DNA of 64,000 bases from an uncultured Clostridia bacterium (GTDB lineage: Bacteria; Bacillota; Clostridia; Oscillospirales; Acutalibacteraceae), in assembly GCA_947166135.1 (NCBI GenBank), contig CAMVDB010000003.1:1-64000 (forward strand), given 5' to 3'. Made by a program: the position numbers and the translations under genes. Each line of letters starts with the position of its first letter. The stretch's first letter is position 1. The notes under the pieces were generated by a model, which did no database searches, had not been told where the DNA came from, and saw only the letters and a list, made by a program, of their open reading frames with translations. This document shows, piece after piece, positions 4,246-63,101 of this stretch.

Positions 4246-4509
4246 ATGGTATCGAAAAAAGTAACGATCGTTAACGCGCAGGGCTTCCACATGCGCCCCG
4301 CTTCCACCTTTGCCAACGCGCTGGCGAAGTACGCCTGCGACGTGACCCTGAAGGTCAACGGTAAGGACGTCAACGCGAAGTCCCTGATGAACATCATCGC
4401 TGCCTGCATCAAGTGCGGCAACGAGGTTGAGGTCGTCTGCAGCGGCGCCGACGAAGAGGCGGCTCTGGCTGAGGCTACCGCAATGATCGAGAGCGGCTTC
4501 GGCGAATAA
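4246..4509 (+). CDS. ptsH: HPr phosphocarrier protein
   Basis: 87 aa, NAQGFHMRPAS active-site His region. Confidence 0.92.
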   Translation: MVSKKVTIVNAQGFHMRPASTFANALAKYACDVTLKVNGKDVNAKSLMNIIAACIKCGNEVEVVCSGADEEAALAEATAMIESGFGE

Positions 4510-4519
4510 AAAAACTGAC

Positions 4520-4642
4520 TGTCATTGCGAGCTCAAAGCCTCCCTTTCCTAAGGGAGGTGCTCCGAAAGGGGCGGAGGGTTGTCGTGGTATTCCCGCTGT
4601 TGTGCCGGTTATGAACCACGTTCTTTTGAGTTTGCAATGACA
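4520..4642. mobile_element. MITE-like element with 18-bp terminal inverted repeats
   Basis: TGTCATTGCGAGCTCAAA (4520-4537) against reverse complement of TTTGAGTTTGCAATGACA (4625-4642), 16/18 matches. Confidence 0.65.
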
Positions 4643-12948: not shown

Positions 12949-15132
12949 ATGGCACGCAACTACAGTACAGGCGAGGTCAAGCGGCTCAGGCGGAAGTATG
13001 AGGAGCTGTACGCAAAGCTCAGACAGCTCGACAGCCTTGCCGACCGCTCTTATCAAGAGATCACCGCGGCTACCGCGAAGATCGCGGGCAGCGACTCGAT
13101 GGAGCTGCTCGAAGCTATCCCCGTCGACGAGCTCAACCGCGAGAAGAAGGGCATCCGCGTCAAGGCTCTGCACGACGCGGGCTTCCATACCGTCGCCGAT
13201 ATCGTCAAGGCGAATGTACACCGTATCTCCGCAATCAACGGCATCAGCCCCGAGGGCGCGCAGGCGATCAAGCAGGCGGCGGCAGAGCTCGCGCAGACCG
13301 CTCAGAGCGGCACGAAGATCAGACTGAGCGCCGACGATAAGAATCCCGATTCGACCGCGCTGGTGACGGCGCTGTGCAAGTATAAGCATATCCGCTCCGC
13401 TGTCGACGCCGCGTCGCAGTTCCGTCAGAACTACGATACCGTTCTGACCCAGGCGATGACAGCCTCAAAGCCCGCCTCGGGCGGCATCCGCTGGCTCTTT
13501 ACGTCAAGCGCGAAGAAGGATGAAGCTGACGCCGCCTGTGACGCGCTCGCGCAGATCCTGTCCGATACGAACCTCGCGCCGCTGAACCGTGAGCTCGAGG
13601 TGCTTCGTCAGTTCACCTTTACCACCTCCAAGGATGCGTGGGATGATTTTTCCCGCGACAGCATCAGCTATATCAACATCCTCGAGAACATCGAGCCCGA
13701 CCGCGTCGGCTCGGGCGACGGCGTTTACGGGCTTCCCGAAGAGCTTGCCGAGTCGGTCGCCGACGTTGAGCTCGATCTGACGGGCTTGCGTTGTACCCTG
13801 CGCCGTTATCAGGAGTGGGGCGTGAAGTACGCGGTCGCCCAGCGCCGTATCCTGCTCGGCGACGAGATGGGTCTCGGCAAGACCGTGCAGGCGATCGCCG
13901 TGATGGTACACCTGCGCAACAAGGGCGGTACGCATTTCGCGGTCGTCTGTCCCGCTTCTGTACTGACCAACTGGTGCCGTGAGATCGCAAAGCACAGCGA
14001 CCTCTCCGTCATCAAGGTTCACGGTAACGGCAAGGAAGCCGCCTTACAGCAGTGGCTGACCGACGGCGGCGTAGCGGTCACGACCTATGAAACGACCGCC
14101 GTATTCGACCTTGCCGACGCCTTTCGCCTGACCATGCTGACCGTGGATGAGGCGCATTATATCAAGAATCCCTCCGCTCAGCGCACCGGCAACGTCAAGC
14201 GCCTGTGCGAGCATGCCGAACGGCTGTTGTTCATGACCGGTACCGCGCTCGAGAATCGGGTAGGGGAGATGGCGACTTTGATCAACATCCTCAACCTCGA
14301 CGTATCCAAGGAGATCCAACCCATGCTGTCGCTTTCCTCCGCGCCTCAGTTCCGCGAGGCGGTCGCGCCGGTATATTACCGCCGCAAGCGCGAGGACGTC
14401 CTCACCGAGCTTCCCGAGCTGGTCGAGAGCATGGAGTGGTGCAACCTGCAGCCCGAGGAGAAGAAGGTCTATCAGGAGGCGCTTTCGGAGTCGAACTTCA
14501 TGGCGGCGAGGCGCGTCTCATGGAACGTGGACGATCTCTCCAAGTCCTCCAAGGCACAGCGCATGCTGGAGATCATCGAGGACGCGCGTGAGCAGGACCG
14601 CAAGGTGCTGATCTTCTCCTTCTTCCTCGATACGGTCGGTAAGATCTGCGCGCTCCTCGGCGAAAATGCCATGGAGCCCATCACCGGCTCCGTGACCCCG
14701 ATGCGCCGTCAGGAGATCATCGACGAGTTCGATAAGGCGCCCGCCGGTACCGCGCTGGTTGCTCAGATCCAGTCCGGCGGTACGGGGCTGAACATCCAGA
14801 GCGCCTCGGTCGTCATCCTGTGCGAGCCTCAGCTCAAGCCTTCGATCGAGAACCAGGCGATCTCCCGCGCTTACCGTATGGGTCAGGCGCGTTCGGTGCT
14901 GGTGTACCGACTGCTGTGTGACGATACCATCGACGAGCGGATCATGGATATCCTCGCCGAGAAGCAGGGCGAGTTTGACGCCTTCGCCGACGAGAGCAAG
15001 GCGGCTGACGATACCCTCGAGCTGGATAAGGCGGCGATCGCCGACATCATGCAGGCGGAACAAGCCGCGAACGGAGAACGAATAATGGTGAATGGAGAAT
15101 GGAGAATGGAGAACGGTGTTGGGAAAGCCTGA
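12949..15132 (+). CDS. SNF2/Swi2 family DEAD/DEAH helicase
   Basis: LGDEMGLGKTVQAIA, VDEAHYIKN, FMTGTALENR, QSGGTGLNIQ, AISRAYRMGQ; SD upstream of the ATG at 12949. Confidence 0.9.
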   Translation: MARNYSTGEVKRLRRKYEELYAKLRQLDSLADRSYQEITAATAKIAGSDSMELLEAIPVDELNREKKGIRVKALHDAGFHTVADIVKANVHRISAINGISPEGAQAIKQAAAELAQTAQSGTKIRLSADDKNPDSTALVTALCKYKHIRSAVDAASQFRQNYDTVLTQAMTASKPASGGIRWLFTSSAKKDEADAACDALAQILSDTNLAPLNRELEVLRQFTFTTSKDAWDDFSRDSISYINILENIEPDRVGSGDGVYGLPEELAESVADVELDLTGLRCTLRRYQEWGVKYAVAQRRILLGDEMGLGKTVQAIAVMVHLRNKGGTHFAVVCPASVLTNWCREIAKHSDLSVIKVHGNGKEAALQQWLTDGGVAVTTYETTAVFDLADAFRLTMLTVDEAHYIKNPSAQRTGNVKRLCEHAERLLFMTGTALENRVGEMATLINILNLDVSKEIQPMLSLSSAPQFREAVAPVYYRRKREDVLTELPELVESMEWCNLQPEEKKVYQEALSESNFMAARRVSWNVDDLSKSSKAQRMLEIIEDAREQDRKVLIFSFFLDTVGKICALLGENAMEPITGSVTPMRRQEIIDEFDKAPAGTALVAQIQSGGTGLNIQSASVVILCEPQLKPSIENQAISRAYRMGQARSVLVYRLLCDDTIDERIMDILAEKQGEFDAFADESKAADDTLELDKAAIADIMQAEQAANGERIMVNGEWRMENGVGKA
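15068..15118. repeat. Heptamer repeat cluster, forming the last codons of the helicase gene
   Basis: gaacggagaacgaataatggtgaatggagaatggagaatggagaacgg. Confidence 0.85.
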
Positions 15133-15245: not shown

Positions 15246-15297
15246 CCATTCACCATTCGCCATTCACCATTCACCGTTCACCATTCTCCATTCACCT
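15246..15297. repeat. Heptamer repeat cluster in opposite orientation to 15068-15118
   Basis: cattcaccattcgccattcaccattcaccgttcaccattctccattcacc. Confidence 0.85.
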
Positions 15298-42523: not shown

Positions 42524-43069
42524 CTATCTGTCTTTTCTTTTCTTAAAGCAATTTTTGTCGTAGCTCGGATTGAAGGCGTAGAAGTTCTTGCTGTCGAGCT
42601 GATCGGTCAGCAGTCGCAGGTTCTCGCCGAAGCGCTGGTAGTGTACGACCTCGCGCGCCCTGAGGAAGCGGATCGGGTCGATGACGTCGGGATCGTCACA
42701 GAAGCGCAGGATATTGTCATAAGTGGTGCGCGCCTTCTGCTCCGCCGCCATGGACTCATGCAGGTCGGTGATCGCGTCGCCCTTGCTGGCGATCGCCATG
42801 GCGTTGAACGGCACGCCTGCCGCCGAGGCGGGATAGATACCGGCGGTGTGATCGACAAAGTATGCGTCGAGTCCCGCCTTCTTGATCTCCTCGGGGCTGA
42901 CGCCCTTGGTCAGCTGATAGATGATCGCGCCGACCATCTCGAGATGGTTCAGCTCTTCGGTACCGACATCGGTCAACGTCGCCTTCAATTCCGGCATCGG
43001 CATCGCAAATCGCTGAGATAAATAGCGGGTCGAAGCCCCCAGCTCACCGTCGGGACCCCCATACACCAA
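42524..43069 (-). pseudogene. cotJC: CotJC-like spore-coat manganese catalase, 5' end removed by element insertion
   Basis: Fragment begins VYGGPDGELGASTRYLSQRFAMPMPELKATLTDVGTEELNHLEMVG; the usual N-terminal ~40 residues are absent and the frame runs into sequence beside the recombinase gene. Confidence 0.8.
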
Positions 43070-43082
43070 AAAACGGTAATGA

Positions 43083-44528
43083 TCAGATATAAAAAAACAG
43101 CTGTATCGAAGTGCTCTTTCGATCGAACACGATTTTGTCGATGAAGCTGCGGATCAGCTCGTTTTTATCCTCCTCGCTCACTGTGGGGTCTCTGAGCGTC
43201 GCCACGGCGTTTTTATGTTCGTCGATCAGTTTCTTCCTGAGCTGCGCTTCCGTGTGCTGTGGCTTGATCTCCTGCGCCCTGAGCGCGGTTATACGCTCGT
43301 CGATTATCCGGCGGCTCTCCTTCAGCTCCTCGATGGTATAGACGCCTGCCTCGAACGCTTCCTTGATCCGCTTATATTTCAGCTTTTCCTTTTGGATCAG
43401 CGCGTCGATATCGATCTCGGTTTTTTCCTCAGTGGGGCGGGTGTTCTTGATCTTGATATTGAATATACCGGTCTCGAAGGCGGTCTCGATGCCGGTCAGC
43501 ACCATCTCATTGAGCTTTGCGATCGTGATATGATGTGAGGTTTTACACTGACCGTGGTTGTATTTAATACACTGCAAAGAGGTTCCCTTGATAGCAGCGG
43601 CGAGGCTTGACCCGCAGTCGGAGCATTTGACCAGTCCGTGCAGCATATACATGTATTTCTTCCCGCTGGTGTGGGCGTAGCGGTTATACTTCTTCTGTTG
43701 GCGTTCGTAGATCGTCTGAACCTTATTGAAGCTCTCCTCGTCGATGATCGGCTCATGCTGACCGTCGGTGATCATGATGTTCGGGTCGTCATAGTTGCGG
43801 CGGGTCCTACCGGTAGGGTTCCAGCGAATCTTCCCGATGTACACCGGGTTGTGAAGAATATAGTCGACAGTGCGATTCTCCCACAGGTTGCCGCGGGTGG
43901 TGCGGATCCCCATATCGTTGAGCTTGCGCGCGATCTGTATTGCCGACATCCCGTTCAGATAGTCGGCGTAGATCTGCCTGACCATCGGAGCGGTCTCCGG
44001 ATTGACGACGTACTGCTTATCGACGATATCATATCCGAACGACGGGATCGATACGGCGCCGCCGCGCTCGACCTTCTCGGTCATGCCGCGCTTGACCTCT
44101 CCTGAAAGGTTGATGCTGTAAAATTCGTCGAACCATTCGATGATGCGCTCGATCAGACTGCCGAAGGGACCGTCAATGATCGGCTCCGAAATCGACTTGA
44201 CCTCGATATCATTCCTTGACAGCATACCCTTGTAGAAGATACTCTCCTCCTGGTTACGGGCAAAACGGCTGAACTTCCACAGCAGAACGGCAGAGAACGG
44301 CGCGGGCTTCTGCTTCGCGGTCGCGATCATCCGGATGAACTCCGGGCGCTTCTCGGCTTTTCTGCCGCTGATACCGTCGTCGCGGAAGATATACTCGTTC
44401 GGCACGATATAGCCGTGCTGCTTCGCGTACTTGCGGATCTCCTTAATCTGGCTGTCGGGGGAGAGCTCCGTCTGATTGTCGGTGCTGACACGGATGTACG
44501 CCGCGGCAGTTTTCAACTCAATATTCAT
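43083..44528 (-). CDS. Large serine recombinase (integrase)
   Basis: AAAYIRVSTDNQTELSPDSQ, KFSRFARNQEESI, Recombinase domain, zinc ribbon CSDCGSSL, C-terminal coiled coil. Confidence 0.92.
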   Translation of the reverse strand: MNIELKTAAAYIRVSTDNQTELSPDSQIKEIRKYAKQHGYIVPNEYIFRDDGISGRKAEKRPEFIRMIATAKQKPAPFSAVLLWKFSRFARNQEESIFYKGMLSRNDIEVKSISEPIIDGPFGSLIERIIEWFDEFYSINLSGEVKRGMTEKVERGGAVSIPSFGYDIVDKQYVVNPETAPMVRQIYADYLNGMSAIQIARKLNDMGIRTTRGNLWENRTVDYILHNPVYIGKIRWNPTGRTRRNYDDPNIMITDGQHEPIIDEESFNKVQTIYERQQKKYNRYAHTSGKKYMYMLHGLVKCSDCGSSLAAAIKGTSLQCIKYNHGQCKTSHHITIAKLNEMVLTGIETAFETGIFNIKIKNTRPTEEKTEIDIDALIQKEKLKYKRIKEAFEAGVYTIEELKESRRIIDERITALRAQEIKPQHTEAQLRKKLIDEHKNAVATLRDPTVSEEDKNELIRSFIDKIVFDRKSTSIQLFFYI

Positions 44529-53806: not shown

Positions 53807-55642
53807 ATGACCTACCTATTCGATTTTGAAGTATTCGCTCACGACTGGGTTTTGGTGGTGAAGGAGCTCGACTGTGAGAACTTCATCGTATACCATAACG
53901 ATCCCGAGGGCGTGGGGGAGTTCCTCAGCGAGATCACGCCGCTGCTCTGCGGCTTCAACAACAAACACTATGATCAGTTCATCATGAAGGCGATCCTCGC
54001 GGGCGCGTCGCCCGAGGAGGTCAAGGACGTCAACGACTTCATCATCCGCGACGGTCACAACGGCTGGGATCACCCGCTCGTGCAGGAGTGCCGCACATGG
54101 TTCGATCAGTTCGATCTGCGCGACGACTGCGAGCAGGGAATGTCGCTGAAAGCCTTCGAGGCGCATACGGGTATGCCGATCGTCGAGTCCTCGGTGGACT
54201 TTAATATCGGCCGTCCCTTGACGAATGACGAGCTCAGCGAGGTCATCGCATACTGCAAGTATGACGTCAGAGCGACCGAAAAGCTCTATCACTGCCGTGA
54301 GGCGTACCTGCAGAACAAGTTATTTCTCGGCGGGATCAAGGGAATCTCCGAGAGTAAATCCCTCTATATGACCAACGCGAAGCTCACCGCCGCCTATCTC
54401 GACGCACGCCACCGCACCTACCATGACGAGCGGGATTACGGTATCCCCGTTAATCTGGATCGGGAGTACATCCCCGATTATGTTTTTCGCTTCTTCCGGA
54501 GGATAACGGATCCGGCTGTACCGGATGATGAGGCGTTCAGCGGGAAGCTGGAGTTCCGCATCGGCGACTGTAGCTGTGTCTTGGGCTTCGGCGGCATCCA
54601 TGGGGCGATCCCGACCTACCGCGAAAAGGCAGAAAAAGGGCGCTCGATCCGCAATCAGGACGTCGCGAGCTACTACCCGCATCTGATGACGCTCGACGGC
54701 TACTGCTCCCGCAGCATCCCCGACCCTAAGGTATACGCCGACATGCTGGAGCGCCGTATGCAGGCGAAGCGCTCGGGCGATAAGGCGACCGCGAACGCCC
54801 TCAAGCTCGTTGCCAATACCACCTACGGCGCGATGCTGAACAAATACAATGACCTGTACGATCCGCTGATGGGTCGGAGTGTGTGTATCACGGGGCAACT
54901 CCGGCTGCTGGAGCTCGCGATCCACCTCGTCGCGAAGTGCCCCTCGATCAAGATCATTCAGCTGAATACCGACGGTATCATGGTGTCGATCGACGATTAC
55001 GATCTGAATGTCTATCAAGCGATCTGTCGGGAGTGGCAGCAGCGCACGGGCTTTGAGCTCGAGGAGGACTGTATCAGCGAGATCATCCAGAAGGACGTCA
55101 ACAACTATATCGAGATCGCCGAGGACGGCTCGACCAAGATCAAGGGCGGGCTGCTTGTGCGGGGTATCTCGCAGGCGGGCGCGTTCAAGGTCAACAACAA
55201 TGCGACGGTCGTCGCGACGGCGATCGTGGATTATTTCGTAAAAGGTACTCCCGTGGAGCAGACGATCCGTGCGTGTGACGACATCTTCGCCTTTCAGCTG
55301 ATCGCGAAGGCGTCGCATAAGTATCGAGGAGCGTTTCATCAGATACACGGTCAGCGGCACGAGGTACAGCGATGCAACCGCGTTTATGCCGTGAACGATG
55401 CCCGGTACGGCACCCTGTATAAGATACGACAGGACGGCGGGTGCGATAAGATCGCGGGCTTGCCCGAGCACTGTGTCGTCGACAACGAGAACGAGCTGTC
55501 GGTCAACGATATCGACAAGGCTTGGTACATCAAACTTGCGAAGAAATACATCAAGGATTTCCTCGGTATCAAGCCGCCTAAGAAGAACACCCGTAATCTC
55601 AATAAACTGAAAAGAGAGGCAATTCAACTACTGGAGGTATAA
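53807..55642 (+). CDS. Family B DNA polymerase with 3'-5' exonuclease
   Basis: ExoI FDFEVF, ExoIII YCKYDVRAT; motif A DVASYYPHLM, motif B KLVANTTYGAM, motif C LNTDGIMV. Confidence 0.85.
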   Translation: MTYLFDFEVFAHDWVLVVKELDCENFIVYHNDPEGVGEFLSEITPLLCGFNNKHYDQFIMKAILAGASPEEVKDVNDFIIRDGHNGWDHPLVQECRTWFDQFDLRDDCEQGMSLKAFEAHTGMPIVESSVDFNIGRPLTNDELSEVIAYCKYDVRATEKLYHCREAYLQNKLFLGGIKGISESKSLYMTNAKLTAAYLDARHRTYHDERDYGIPVNLDREYIPDYVFRFFRRITDPAVPDDEAFSGKLEFRIGDCSCVLGFGGIHGAIPTYREKAEKGRSIRNQDVASYYPHLMTLDGYCSRSIPDPKVYADMLERRMQAKRSGDKATANALKLVANTTYGAMLNKYNDLYDPLMGRSVCITGQLRLLELAIHLVAKCPSIKIIQLNTDGIMVSIDDYDLNVYQAICREWQQRTGFELEEDCISEIIQKDVNNYIEIAEDGSTKIKGGLLVRGISQAGAFKVNNNATVVATAIVDYFVKGTPVEQTIRACDDIFAFQLIAKASHKYRGAFHQIHGQRHEVQRCNRVYAVNDARYGTLYKIRQDGGCDKIAGLPEHCVVDNENELSVNDIDKAWYIKLAKKYIKDFLGIKPPKKNTRNLNKLKREAIQLLEV

Positions 55643-55643
55643 T

Positions 55644-56426
55644 ATGGCTACAAAAACGAAAGCAAAAACAGAAACGACCGAGAAGAAGGAGCTGACCGAC
55701 GAGCAGATCGGGGAGATGAGCCTGTTCGAGCGACTCGTGCATATCCGCCGGGAGTTCGCGGGCTCACAGGTCGGCAAATCGGGAGTGAACGATCACGGCG
55801 AGTTCCTGTACTTCGAGCTCAAGGATATCAAGCCGGTCATCGACCCGATCCTCAGGAAGTATCACACACTGTTCCTCGTCACCTTTCCGTCGGGCGTGGC
55901 GAAGGGCACCCTGTACAACCTCGATGCGCTGAGTGATCAGATCACCTTCGAGTTCGACATGGCTCACATCAAGGAACCCGCGAAGTTCCGCATGAACGAG
56001 GCGCAGGCGTGCGGTGCGGAGCAGACCTACTACCGCCGTTACCTATACTATCTGCTGCTGGATATCGCGCCGAACGACGAGTTTGACGGAGCGCCCAAGG
56101 CTCCCGCAGCGCCCGTGCCTGCGCCGCCCGTGACGCTCCCTAAGCAGAAGAAGCCCGCCACCTCCGCCGAGAGGTCTCAGGTGAAGAAGACTCTGACCGA
56201 CGCCGACGGTAACGCCGACGAGCTGCAGATCAAGGCGCTTAAGGAGGCGCTCAAGGCGCTGCGCGAGGTCGACCCGTCACAGGACGAGTTCATCCAGGAG
56301 ATCGCGCTCAAGACGGACAGCTTCACGAAGATCAAGCGCTCTGCCTGCGAGCAGCTGATCGTCACCGTTCAGCAGATGCGCGAGCAGTATCTCAGCGAAA
56401 ACGAGGGTCAGCTATGGGAGGAGTAA
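55644..56426 (+). CDS. ERF-family single-strand annealing protein
   Basis: MSLFERLVHIRREFAGSQVGKSGVNDHGEFLYFELKDIKPVIDPILRKYHTLFLVTF; next to YqaJ nuclease. Confidence 0.75.
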   Translation: MATKTKAKTETTEKKELTDEQIGEMSLFERLVHIRREFAGSQVGKSGVNDHGEFLYFELKDIKPVIDPILRKYHTLFLVTFPSGVAKGTLYNLDALSDQITFEFDMAHIKEPAKFRMNEAQACGAEQTYYRRYLYYLLLDIAPNDEFDGAPKAPAAPVPAPPVTLPKQKKPATSAERSQVKKTLTDADGNADELQIKALKEALKALREVDPSQDEFIQEIALKTDSFTKIKRSACEQLIVTVQQMREQYLSENEGQLWEE

Positions 56427-57457
56427 CGTGGATCCCCGAGGGAAGGATGCTCCGCATCGACCCTCCGAAGAAGCCGAAGAAGATCACCGGTACCCGCTTC
56501 GCCGCGATCATGGGGCTGAACACCTGGAACACGCCCTTCAAGACCTGGTGCGAGATCACCCGCACCTACACCGAGCCGTTCGAGGAGACGATCTATACCC
56601 GCGCGGGAAAAATCATCGAGCCGAAGCAGGCGGATTACATGAAGCGGGCGTACTTCATGCAGAATCTGATCACGCCGACCGAGAAATACGGCGAGGACTA
56701 CTTCAGGACGACCCGCGGCGACTTCTTCCCCGAGGATAAGATCTTCGGCGGGATGTGGGACTACCTGCTGGTCGATGAGAACGGTAAGCCGACCGCCGTG
56801 CTGGAGATGAAGACCACCAAGCGGTCGGAGGACTGGGCGGACGATATCCCGCCGTACTACGCTCTGCAGGCGGCGCTGTATGCGTACCTGCTCGGGGTAG
56901 AGGACGTGTACATGGTCGCGTCGTTCCTTGAGGACGGAGACTATCAGCGTCCCGAGAGCTTCATCCCCTCGGCAGAGAACACCATCGTAGTACCGTTCAA
57001 GCTGCATGAGCGATACCCGAATTTTGCGGAGTACATCGAATATGCCCGCTCATGGTGGGAGAACAACGTCGAGTACGGGATCTCGCCGCAGTATGACGAG
57101 GTCGCCGACCGCGAGGTGCTCAGGGAGCTTCGGACGCTCTACTATTCGCCCGAGACCGACGTGCAGGCGATGGTCAAGGAACTCGGAGAGCTGATCGACA
57201 CGATCAGTAAGTACCGCAAGATCCTCGACCCGCTGGAGAAGCGCATCAACGCACTGAAAGCCACACTGAAGCAGTCGATGATCGACAGCATGGGTCCTTA
57301 TGACGACCGCGCTGTTCTGCGCGCAGGCTCCCATACACTCACCCTGTTCAAGAGCACCGGCACCAAGGTCGACCGCGAGGCGCTCGACCGCGACGGCATA
57401 CTCGACAAGTACACCGTAACCGATACACAATATAAAATGACATTCAAGGAGGAATGA
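56414..57457 (+). CDS. YqaJ-family viral recombinase exonuclease
   Basis: ITGTRFAAIMGLNTWNTPFKTWCE, GGMWDYLLVDENGKPTAVLEMKTTK. Confidence 0.88.
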   Translation: MGGVTWIPEGRMLRIDPPKKPKKITGTRFAAIMGLNTWNTPFKTWCEITRTYTEPFEETIYTRAGKIIEPKQADYMKRAYFMQNLITPTEKYGEDYFRTTRGDFFPEDKIFGGMWDYLLVDENGKPTAVLEMKTTKRSEDWADDIPPYYALQAALYAYLLGVEDVYMVASFLEDGDYQRPESFIPSAENTIVVPFKLHERYPNFAEYIEYARSWWENNVEYGISPQYDEVADREVLRELRTLYYSPETDVQAMVKELGELIDTISKYRKILDPLEKRINALKATLKQSMIDSMGPYDDRAVLRAGSHTLTLFKSTGTKVDREALDRDGILDKYTVTDTQYKMTFKEE

Positions 57458-57460
57458 TTG

Positions 57461-57937
57461 ATGGCAACGATTAAACTGACCAGCGGTTTCTCGCTGATTC
57501 CCGAGGGTTCGCATGTATTCAAGATCACCGACGTCGACTACAAGGAGGCGTTCGGTAAGATCGAGGTCAAGATGGAGACCGCGGACGGTCAGAAGCACAC
57601 CGAACGCTTTAAGATCATGAACAAGGGGGAGGTGAACGACGGCGCGATGAAGGCGTTCTCGTACTTCGCTAAGACCGCTCTCAACGACTATACCCGCGAG
57701 GAGATCGACCATACCGAGCTGATCGGTCACTTCATCCGCTGTGAGGTGGAGCACACCGACCCGCAGCCGAACAAGAACGACCCGACCAAGACCGTCGTGT
57801 TCATCCGCTTGGGGGACAAGGAGCCCGCCGACGGCTTTGACGCCGCCCCTGCAAAGAAAGCTGAAATCGCAACACCCGCCGCATCCGTAAAGCCCGCCCG
57901 CAAGGCGTCCGTCGATCTGGATGTGCTGCTGGGTTGA
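57461..57937 (+). CDS. DUF669-like phage protein
   Basis: Compact beta-rich protein between YqaJ nuclease and primase. Confidence 0.6.
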   Translation: MATIKLTSGFSLIPEGSHVFKITDVDYKEAFGKIEVKMETADGQKHTERFKIMNKGEVNDGAMKAFSYFAKTALNDYTREEIDHTELIGHFIRCEVEHTDPQPNKNDPTKTVVFIRLGDKEPADGFDAAPAKKAEIATPAASVKPARKASVDLDVLLG

Positions 57938-58728
57938 GACACTATGAGAACATACCGATAGAACTGAAGGACATCCCCCGATGGGTCTGCGTGAAGGGGA
58001 GCTCCAAGCTCCCCATGCAGGCGCGGGTGAATGAGCCCGCCTCCTCGTCCGATCCCGCTACATGGAGCAGCTTTGACGAGGCAAGGGCGGCAGTCGACAA
58101 GGGATACTACGACGACGTCGGTTTTGTGTTCGCTGATGATGGCATCGTCGGCGTGGATATCGACGACGGCTTTGACGAAGACGGCTTCCTCTCGGCGTTG
58201 AGTATCGACTGCATGAAGGCTTGCTGTTCCTACACCGAGCGTTCCCGATCCGGCCGCGGAATCCATATCCTCGTGCGCGGCACGCTCCCCTTCGGCGGCA
58301 GAAATAACCGTAAGGGCTGTGAGATATACCGCACCGGGCGCTACTTCATCACGACGGGCGATCGTCTGATCTACCCCGAGATCATCGAGAATCAGAGCGG
58401 TATCGACCGGATCGTCGCGACGTACTTCCCCGAGGTCGTCCGGGACGGCGAGGGCGCCTTGACGCCGCGTATCTATACGCCGATCTGGACGCCGCCGGAG
58501 AACGGAAGGATCAGGCTCGATCCCGTTTACCCGCCCGTCTATCCCGGCTCGCGCAATATCTGCATGACCTCGCTCGCGGGGCAGCTGCACCGTCAGGGCT
58601 ACAGCAGGGAGATGATATACCGTGAGGTGTGCCGGGCGAATCGGGAAGCCTGCATGCCGCCGCTCCCCGACAGGGAGATACAGACGCTCGTAAGCAGCGT
58701 CACAAGATACAGGAGGTGCAGCGCATGA
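57934..58728 (+). CDS. Primase-polymerase-like protein
   Basis: IPRWVCVKGSSK...VGFVFADDGIVGVDIDDGFDEDG...RSGRGIHILVRG. Confidence 0.75.
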   Translation: MRHYENIPIELKDIPRWVCVKGSSKLPMQARVNEPASSSDPATWSSFDEARAAVDKGYYDDVGFVFADDGIVGVDIDDGFDEDGFLSALSIDCMKACCSYTERSRSGRGIHILVRGTLPFGGRNNRKGCEIYRTGRYFITTGDRLIYPEIIENQSGIDRIVATYFPEVVRDGEGALTPRIYTPIWTPPENGRIRLDPVYPPVYPGSRNICMTSLAGQLHRQGYSREMIYREVCRANREACMPPLPDREIQTLVSSVTRYRRCSA

Positions 58729-60122
58729 CCACCGCAGAAGCGCTTGATATCACAATCGAAGAAGCTGAGAACACGCCCGAGGAGGAGATCTACGCCGCCT
58801 ATCCGCATGATTCTCTCTGGGTACCTGACGGAAAGAACGGCGAGCGGGTAAACGAGACCAACTTCGCCCGACTCTTCCGCGACATCAATCTCGTGAAATT
58901 CCATAACGGCACCTTCTACACCAAGGAGGGCGTAAAGAGCCGCGAGCAGATCGCGAGCGATATCTGGGGCTCTTTAGCTGAAGCGGGCTTGAACCGCAGC
59001 ACCAAGTCGACGGTCGAGAACATGCTCGCCGCCTGCGCTTATGCCGCTACCGTCCCGAAGTTCACGGTTGACGAGAACGTGATCCCCTTTGCAAACGGCA
59101 ATTACTACGTCAGGGAACGCCTGTTCCGGTACGGCGAGATCACGACGGTACCGTACCGCCTGAGGGTCGCGTTCTCTCCGGTTGTGCCCGATACGCCGTA
59201 CTTCGACAAGTGGCTGAACGACCTGCTCGAGCCCGACGATCAGCGTACCTTACAGGAGTACCTCGGTTACTGCATGGTACCTGTCACGAGCTGTCAGAAG
59301 GCGCTGTTCCTCGTGGGTGAGGGCGGCGCGGGCAAGTCCGGGCTGGGTGTGATTTTGGAAGCCCTGCTCGGCAGTGCCGAGATCAACGTCTCGAACACCC
59401 AGGAGTTCATCGGCAACAAGTTCATGCTTGCCGAGCTGGAGCACAAGCTTGTGCTGTATGACGACGACCTCGACAGCGCCGCCCTCTCCGAAACGGGACT
59501 TTACAAGAAGCTGATCACCAACACCATCCCGATCACCGCGGACAAGAAGTACGGACCCACCTACAAGTTTACCCCGAAAATCAAGCTGATCTCGTGCTGT
59601 AACCGCATGCTGACCTCGATCTACGACAAGAGTGGGGGCTTCTACCGTCGGCTGCTGCCGCTGATCGTCAAGCCGATCCGCCGCGACTTTGTCCCCGATC
59701 TCAGATTCTATGAGAAGCTGAAACAGGAGGCGGAGGGCATCGCGCTCTGGGCGCTGGCGGGTCTGATACGGCTGATGGATCACGACTGGGTGCTGTCGGA
59801 GAGTCAGCGCACCCGCGACTATATGGAGTCGAAGCAGAACATCGAGAACCCGCTGCCGCTGTTCATGGAGGCGGCGTTCGACTTCGACCCCGAGGCGCCG
59901 GGTGTGAGCACGCGGCAGATCATCAGCCTGTACAACGAGTGGTGCATCAAGAACGCCTACAAGCCCCAGAGCAACCGAAGCGTCCAGACATGGCTGTCAG
60001 AGAACGCAGAACGGTACGGGATAAAGCAAGATACCAACATCAAAGAAGGCGATAAACGAGTTCGAGGGTACAGAGGCTTGATCGTAAAAGAGAAATCTGA
60101 CGGTAAAATACAACTGGTTTAG
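58725..60122 (+). CDS. P4-family phage/plasmid primase-helicase
   Basis: LFLVGEGGAGKSGLGVILEALLG Walker A; KLVLYDDDLDSAALSETGLYKKLI; SD aggaggtg. Confidence 0.88.
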   Translation: MTTAEALDITIEEAENTPEEEIYAAYPHDSLWVPDGKNGERVNETNFARLFRDINLVKFHNGTFYTKEGVKSREQIASDIWGSLAEAGLNRSTKSTVENMLAACAYAATVPKFTVDENVIPFANGNYYVRERLFRYGEITTVPYRLRVAFSPVVPDTPYFDKWLNDLLEPDDQRTLQEYLGYCMVPVTSCQKALFLVGEGGAGKSGLGVILEALLGSAEINVSNTQEFIGNKFMLAELEHKLVLYDDDLDSAALSETGLYKKLITNTIPITADKKYGPTYKFTPKIKLISCCNRMLTSIYDKSGGFYRRLLPLIVKPIRRDFVPDLRFYEKLKQEAEGIALWALAGLIRLMDHDWVLSESQRTRDYMESKQNIENPLPLFMEAAFDFDPEAPGVSTRQIISLYNEWCIKNAYKPQSNRSVQTWLSENAERYGIKQDTNIKEGDKRVRGYRGLIVKEKSDGKIQLV

Positions 60123-60423
60123 CTTACACGGATATATCGAAAGAAGCGTGTAAGAAGCGTGTGAAATGTGTAAGTGGGATATAACATTTCATGAGATTTA
60201 CACGTTTTACACGGATGATACACGGATGAAACGATAGAACCGTGTAAACGATAACATCAGAAAACAACTGACATAATAATAACTTTTACACGCTTACACG
60301 GATATTTTATTAACCTTTATATGGAGAATGTCATTATTCTATAATAGAAATATAATACATAACTATAAGGAATATTAGGAATTATCCGTGTATCCGTGTA
60401 AACCGTGCAGAAAGGATGAAATA
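60123..60423. promoter_or_regulatory. Candidate replication origin: repeated ACACGGAT/ATCCGTGT motifs around an AT-rich segment
   Basis: Copies at 60123-60133, 60205-60216, 60219-60227, 60293-60303, 60384-60400, shorter variants at 60196-60204 and 60238-60250; AT-rich 60300-60380. Confidence 0.65.
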
Positions 60424-60984
60424 ATGGAGCAGAAAGAGATACAGGAGCTCGGCGAGAAAACCGTCAAGAAACGACCCGGCAAATCGAAGGATATGGCGGT
60501 CTCCGCGACTCCCGAGGAGAATAAGAAGTATGTCTCCCATGTGCTGGAGAGCTTCAAGCTGCCGGAGATTGACAGAAACGATCCCGAACAGGTTGCAGAA
60601 AGAATCGAATGGTACTTCAATCATTGTGCGACGGATGGCATGAAGCCGACGGTTGCCGGGGTGTGTAACGCGCTCGGTATTGACAGGGTAACCTTTTATC
60701 AGTGGGGTACAGGTGACCGACGAGGTAAAAACCCCGCCTATGCGAACATGGTAAAAAAGGCGAAAGCGATGATTTGGGAGCTCTGGGAGCAGTACGCCGC
60801 CGACGGCAAGGTGAACCCGGTCACCTTCATCTTCCTGATGAAAAACCACTTCGGCTATGCCGACAAGCAAGAGGTCGTCGTCACGCCTGCCGACCCGCTC
60901 GGTGATCGCGGGAACGTGGACGAGCTGCAAAAGAAGTACAGCGCGAGCGTGGTTGACGTCGAGGGCGAAGAGGTCGACGATTGA
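60424..60984 (+). CDS. Putative small terminase subunit / DNA-packaging protein
   Basis: GMKPTVAGVCNALGIDRVTFYQWGTG HTH; FIFLMKNHFGYADKQEVVVTPADPLGD. Confidence 0.7.
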   Translation: MEQKEIQELGEKTVKKRPGKSKDMAVSATPEENKKYVSHVLESFKLPEIDRNDPEQVAERIEWYFNHCATDGMKPTVAGVCNALGIDRVTFYQWGTGDRRGKNPAYANMVKKAKAMIWELWEQYAADGKVNPVTFIFLMKNHFGYADKQEVVVTPADPLGDRGNVDELQKKYSASVVDVEGEEVDD

Positions 60985-62336: not shown

Positions 62337-63101
62337 GTGTGTATTATGAAGAACGTGGCTGCTTATATTCGCGTCAGTACTGACGGTCAGCTCGGCGACG
62401 ACAAATTCGGGCTGGATGTACAGAGAGAGCAGATCATTGAATACTGCGGGAAGAATGACATGAACATCATCCGCTGGTTTTCGGATGAAGGGGAGAGCGG
62501 CGCGAAGTATCGCCCGGGGTTTGACGAGATCGTTTACGGTGATGTGAGTAATCCTCCGTATGAGGCGGTGGTGGTTGCGAAGTCCGACAGAGTCGCTCGA
62601 GACATCAACATTTATTTCTACTATCAGGGTTCACTTCTCCGTAAAGGCATTGAGTTGATCAGCATAACGGAAGATTTCGGACAGTTCGGCGTGTTCGCGA
62701 ATATGCTCAAGGCATTTACCCTGACCTGTGCCGAGATGGAGCGCGATAATATCAACAAGCGTACCAGCGCCGGTCGAACGGTCAAGGCTTCTCGCGGCGG
62801 GTACAGCGGCGGTCGTACCCCGTTCGGATATAAGGCGATCGACCATCAGATGGTAATTGTTCCGTCGGAGGCGGAGATCGTGAGAACGATTTTCCGTATG
62901 AAGGACGACGAGGGACAGACGTATAAGGCGATCGTCGCTTATCTGAATGAACAGGGTTACACGAACAGGAGCGGCTCTAAGTTCTCGATCAGCACCGTCC
63001 AGACGATCTATGAGAATAAGAAGGTGTACGAGGGGCTCTATCGCTACGGCGGGAAGACTGCCGACTGGGTCCAAGGACAGCACGAGCCGATCTTGGGATA
63101 A
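62337..63101 (+). CDS. Short or truncated serine recombinase
   Basis: VAAYIRVSTDGQLGDDKFGLDVQREQI, SDRVARDINIYFYY; ends at GQHEPILG, where the 43083 recombinase continues into zinc ribbon and coiled coil. Confidence 0.85.
   Translation: MCIMKNVAAYIRVSTDGQLGDDKFGLDVQREQIIEYCGKNDMNIIRWFSDEGESGAKYRPGFDEIVYGDVSNPPYEAVVVAKSDRVARDINIYFYYQGSLLRKGIELISITEDFGQFGVFANMLKAFTLTCAEMERDNINKRTSAGRTVKASRGGYSGGRTPFGYKAIDHQMVIVPSEAEIVRTIFRMKDDEGQTYKAIVAYLNEQGYTNRSGSKFSISTVQTIYENKKVYEGLYRYGGKTADWVQGQHEPILG

Follow-up and report, generated by a model that had tools for sequence, protein, structure and literature searches.

The non-coding region at 60123-60402 of the window (the whole stretch of 64,000 nucleotides that was analysed, from a contig of an uncultured Clostridia bacterium) is, judged by its sequence and as part of the best explanation of the whole, very probably the vegetative replication origin of a prophage. 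Here, repeats with a defined geometry surround an AT-rich block within a phage gene context, and this plan is conserved behind homologous helicases. A prophage origin had already been proposed in the first-pass annotation, and it stands as the best reading, which we infer from the position, the iterons, the AT-rich block, the complete prophage, the plan at homologous helicases and the match with the origin of phage Sfi21.

Twelve iterons surround an AT-rich block

Counting exact strings, we found 6 copies of ACACGGAT within 60126-60399, 4 on the plus and 2 on the minus strand. Only 3 more copies occur in the remaining window, and the total of 9 (2.1 expected) was reached in 0 of 100 shuffles of the window. 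A relaxed search with TTACACGGAT, allowing up to 3 mismatches, raised the number of sites of this type (TTACACGn-type) at 60124-60401 to 12, namely the 6 exact copies and 6 further ones, relative to a background density of 1.6 per 300 bp (Table 1). The earlier claim of at least six copies in both orientations around an AT-rich block was thus borne out. A degenerate thirteenth site is located at 60401 on the minus strand, and a weak match at 60317, within the AT-rich block, was left out of the count. The best 8-mer family had 12 copies in the region, whereas none of 30 shuffles of this DNA gave more than 5, and its z value was the highest among all loci tested.

The sites are not only dense but also ordered. 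Two inner pairs of opposite orientation, starting at 60286/60294 (+) and 60384/60392 (-), flank a block of 81% AT, a value that is equalled but not exceeded by other 80-bp stretches of the 64-kb window. The convergence score of the region was 7, while 500 shuffles gave at most 4 (p 0.002). The block, which is the probable melting site, also contains a ACCTTTATAT-like element that is retained in viral relatives. The array begins 2 bp past the helicase stop (60122) and stops short of the ATG of the terminase small subunit gene (TerS; 60424). Cumulative GC skew showed no minimum at the array, only a steeper slope after ~60 kb.

Other dense repeat clusters in the window are tandem repeats of a different character; 7-bp microsatellites were seen at 1-171 (TCTCCGT x24), 15069-15113 and 15246-15296 (the others GAATGGA and CCATTCA). 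In its own genome, the TTACACG pattern was clustered at 60124-60401 only. A second copy of the region was not found in this genome, nor was a further TTACACG cluster found there or in the window, a search that a diverged second site could escape. An RNA family search of the region returned a chance match only, far under the gathering score. Since the region's DNA also had no meaningful match among phages, the comparison with other elements was made via the helicase.

Table 1. Iterons, AT-rich block and neighbouring genes in the window
Feature	Position	Strand	Basis
Phage DNA polymerase	53807..55642	+	phrog_1252 E 6.5e-147
Erf-type single-strand annealing protein	55644..56426	+	PF04404, phrog_155
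YqaJ/RecE-type exonuclease	56414..57457	+	PF09588, phrog_434
Primase (PriCT_1), own gene overlapping helicase	57934..58728	+	PF08708 E 2.5e-11; phrog_13901 E 6e-41
Predicted initiator helicase, D5_N + DUF5906	58725..60122	+	PF19263, PF08706
Iteron TTACACGGAT	60124..60133	+	relaxed search
Iteron TTACACGCTT	60144..60153	-	relaxed search
Variant iteron TCACACGCTT	60155..60164	-	relaxed search
Variant iteron TTACACATTT	60164..60173	-	relaxed search
Iteron TTACACGTTT	60198..60207	+	relaxed search
Iteron TTACACGGAT	60207..60216	+	relaxed search
Iteron ATACACGGAT	60218..60227	+	relaxed search
Iteron TTACACGGTT	60238..60247	-	relaxed search
Inner left iteron 1, TTACACGCTT	60286..60295	+	relaxed search
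Inner left iteron 2, TTACACGGAT, 8 bp past iteron 1	60294..60303	+	relaxed search
AT-rich block, 81% AT, 80 bp (probable melting site)	60304..60383	none	composition
Inner right iteron 1, ATACACGGAT	60384..60393	-	relaxed search
Inner right iteron 2, TTACACGGAT, 8 bp past iteron 1	60392..60401	-	relaxed search
Terminase small subunit (TerS)	60424..60984	+	PF16677, phrog_606

The array belongs to a complete prophage

The array and the replication genes before it are part of a complete prophage of ~41 kb, which extends from ~43.08 to ~84.4 kb of the contig. An HTH repressor-type gene and the gene of a full-length serine integrase are located at its left end. Past the limit of the window, the element continues with the terminase large subunit, with ORFs resembling those for portal, capsid and tail, and with a lysin.

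A manganese-catalase/cotJC-like spore-coat gene is interrupted by the prophage, and one part of it lies at 42524-43069 (-), the other at ~4430-4535 (-) of L040. The profile match of the left fragment begins at profile position 28, and the start that it lacks (MFVYEKQLQYPVKIKNPNPALAKIIASQYGG) is found at the right end by cotJB. This is a skin-like insertion in a sporulation gene, and it may be excised in the mother cell. The two prophage ends (~43065-43085; L040 ~4415-4440) share an inverted CCAAAAAACGGT / ACCGTTTTTTGG match, and these are probable attP half-sites of the serine integrase. A second serine recombinase of 254 aa (62337-63101), with resolvase and recombinase domains and without the C-terminal part, is encoded between TerS and the large subunit gene, beside an FtsK-like gene on the minus strand and an Mrr-like gene.

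The helicase resembles the SaPI5 initiator and ends in a predicted winged helix

The helicase matched the SaPI5 primase-helicase 7ola by sequence (E 8.5e-11) as well as by profile. An AF2 model (pLDDT 84) had the same protein as its top Foldseek match, over nearly the whole length (E 8e-18). The first-pass annotation had spoken of a P4-type helicase. Its iteron origin plan holds, but the helicase groups with SaPI5/D5_N and not with P4 alpha specifically; the term is loose, since primase and helicase are encoded separately and the closest solved structure is that of SaPI5. Likewise, the array was correctly placed, with the helicase stop 2 bp before it, while the supposed primase-helicase gene is in fact two overlapping genes.

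At the C-terminus, within the last ~110 residues, a winged helix was modelled at about aa 375-455. The nearest solved folds of this domain were those of Cdc6/Orc1 bound to origin DNA and of RFX bound to its site, with weak E values of 0.01-0.14; the P4 alpha origin-binding domain was absent from its top 50 structural matches. On the basis of this model, the DNA-binding part of the helicase is expected to be the C-terminal winged helix, not the N-terminus. This fits the literature on SaPI Rep and SCCmec Cch2, each of which uses its C-terminal domain to bind iterons located just downstream of the gene that encodes it (PMC7581432).

We propose as initiator the upstream-encoded helicase, which would bind the TTACACGGAT iterons via its C-terminal winged-helix domain. 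Two helicase oligomers, probably hexamers, would assemble head to head at the convergent inner pairs flanking the AT-rich block, melt these 80 bp and then unwind outward. From this presumed replication start, synthesis of both strands would then fall to the phage DNA polymerase and the separately encoded primase.

Convergent repeats recur behind homologous helicases

Homologous helicases were present in 37 of 398 family genomes, and at 80 loci in named genome contigs. We searched the 400 bp past each helicase stop for convergent repeat sets and scored a locus as positive when it beat all 40 shuffles. This was the case for 39 of 108 loci, which are not independent events since many of the 108 are near copies; among the controls, 4 of 109 in-gene segments and 1 of 98 distal segments were positive. 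The arrays came in two styles, one with a long spacer (82-179 bp) and one compact, mostly without an AT-rich spacer. Long spacers were 71-82% AT in 6 of 7 loci (the window, L015, L027, L031, L033 and L038; the exception was L050). With the window left aside, 5 of 6 such spacers had 71-81% AT. L015 has a TACACGG iteron in common with the window, at 30% helicase identity. Among the ~30% identical relatives, there was no clear correlation between C-terminal identity and iteron likeness.

Among these elements, L122 is a prophage that encodes a terminase and a portal of its own, and L123 and L126 represent replication modules of phage type with a family A polymerase. The plan was not found in the one Alteromonas phage and the one Arthrobacter phage examined. 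In a relaxase-bearing element (L029 and L125, G375), a D5_N-type helicase gene with one in-frame TAG is followed by an array of GGCGTGTA iterons. L121 and L124 combine a rep-type helicase with a convergent AT-block origin, L121 near host CTP synthase and DAP epimerase genes; these two may be phage satellites of Clostridia. The plan recurs behind D5_N helicases of phages and other mobile elements, and therefore the origins of many unannotated prophages should be predictable from the helicase gene alone.

Close viral relatives largely keep the site map and change the iteron

A viral scan with the single helicase protein found no relatives, and a profile scan of IMG/VR yielded five loci (L148-L152) with helicases 48-51% identical to that of the window. 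Directly behind these helicases the iterons are TGAGAC (L148, L149), TGATAC (L150, L151) and GTTGCT (L152), and the AT-rich blocks have the ACCTTTATAT-like element in common. In L151 and L152, the gene after the array is again TerS, and the TerS of the window is 44% and 34% identical to these genes, respectively.

Site maps were drawn from the stop codon (sign, orientation; slash, AT-rich block). That of the window reads +1 -24 -35 -44 +75 +84 +95 -118 +163 +171 / -264 -272, and that of L150 reads -2 -13 -22 +73 +82 -116 +147 +156 / -252 -269. All 10 L150 sites have a partner in the window by place and orientation (p 0.003 by orientation shuffle, <0.001 with random positions). L149, which is related to L150 and not independent of it, matched at 9 of 11 sites (p 0.007). 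The match of L152 was weaker (p 0.02), the opposite orientation fitting equally, and that of L151 was not significant. All these p-values are somewhat optimistic, because for each locus the iteron seeds were selected visually, with their orientation taken from the pair beside the AT-rich block. The mixed orientations of the sites beyond the inner pairs thus resemble a conserved blueprint more than noise.

Relative to the window helicase, the AAA domains of L148-L152 are 60-63% identical and the winged helices 35-45%. We tentatively suggest, while rating it somewhat below even chances, that the origin of this phage group is a fixed spatial scaffold of ten to twelve sites on which the recognition sequence changes readily, along with the winged helix of the initiator. 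If so, related phages would have mutually orthogonal origins; satellites or rival phages that interfere by way of the ori, as with the PER element of Sfi21, could be what selects for this. Pairs with 48-51% identical helicases, a kept map and changed iterons make initiator-origin co-evolution directly testable, and the pattern deserves a proper test.

Readings other than an origin

The region precedes TerS, and its AT-rich block holds two TATAAT-type promoter matches (60316-60345 and 60328-60356), as might be expected if the repeats bound a phage regulator of TerS and the late genes and the block were promoter DNA. We consider this improbable. Promoter matches are near the shuffle expectation (3 versus 1.8), and twelve sites over 280 bp with a conserved map are unlike an operator. 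Moreover, the arrays track the helicase, not TerS: the next gene is of endonuclease type in the Streptococcus phages and L033, and an HTH gene follows the array of the relaxase-bearing relative. Because of the sigma-70-like match in the AT-rich block, itself near shuffle level, the region may also drive TerS.

The changing downstream neighbour bears equally on a pac site read by the adjacent terminase small subunit. The TerS gene does start 22 bp downstream, and L151 and L152 likewise have TerS after the array, but such arrays also precede other genes (L123, Streptococcus phages) and the constant neighbour is the helicase gene; on this context we rejected the packaging site as very unlikely. 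A use of the array for attachment or recombination by the serine recombinase that is encoded 2 kb downstream (62337-63101) was likewise rejected on context and has a negligible probability, since the prophage has its own ends elsewhere (~43.07 and ~84.4 kb), in the split cotJC-like gene by the full-length serine integrase, and twelve iterons have no att structure.

Comparison with known origins

Phage P4 alpha is a primase-helicase initiator with a C-terminal winged helix and iterons; it is a single fused protein, and the P4 origin consists of two separated sites, ori and crr. In contrast, the window encodes primase and helicase in two ORFs (57934-58728 and 58725-60122), and since these genes are unfused the element is not a strict P4 replicon. 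SCCmec Cch2 is likewise a D5_N-family helicase, and its C-terminal domain binds repeats directly downstream (PMC7581432), but it has three AAGTG iterons only, resides in a chromosomal cassette and has an unusual primase partner.

The rep-ori regions of PICIs and SaPIs (Fillol-Salom 2018, Ubeda 2007) have the plan of the array. In PICI origins, an AT-rich region lies between two iteron sets, and the whole is placed just 3' of rep (PMC6092414); in the window, too, iteron sets flank an AT-rich presumed melting region 3' of the helicase, the nearest solved structure of which is the SaPI5 primase-helicase. Primase and helicase are unfused in some PICIs, though not all, and terS is sometimes within the element, as the TerS gene follows the array here. 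PICIs are satellites without portal and large terminase genes of their own. The window element, in contrast, is an entire prophage that encodes terminase, portal and tail functions itself; given these structural genes (a large terminase and ORFs like those for portal, capsid and tail), the element is not one of the PICIs.

The Streptococcus thermophilus phage Sfi21 has an annotated origin (NC_000872 34487-34784), a 302-bp non-coding element, PER, for which origin character and PER activity were reported (Foley 1998, as cited in PMC6356513). Its helicase is homologous to that of the window (E 2e-13; hhalign probability 98%; ~25% identical). Its GTTAC sites lie at +24 -32 -55 +99 +107, followed by the AT block, -183 -191 and more outer sites. 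As in the window, an inner plus pair 8 bp apart, an AT block (~70 bp and 92% AT in Sfi21) and a minus pair 8 bp apart succeed each other, the outer repeats are mixed, the origin is directly behind the helicase and the primase is a separate gene. The two differ in the iteron core (GTTAC versus TTACACGGAT), and TerS is not annotated behind the Sfi21 origin. Owing to the short iteron core of the Sfi21 origin, the 8-mer convergence test gave only p 0.07 there; the plan is also seen in Streptococcus phages 315.6 and P9 (p 0.01).

The PICI plan was held to be common to no other known replicon (PMC6092414), but the present data and Sfi21 indicate that it is wider than that. The array would work like the Sfi21/PICI-type origins and, by its sequence features, belongs with them, with a repeat sequence of its own.
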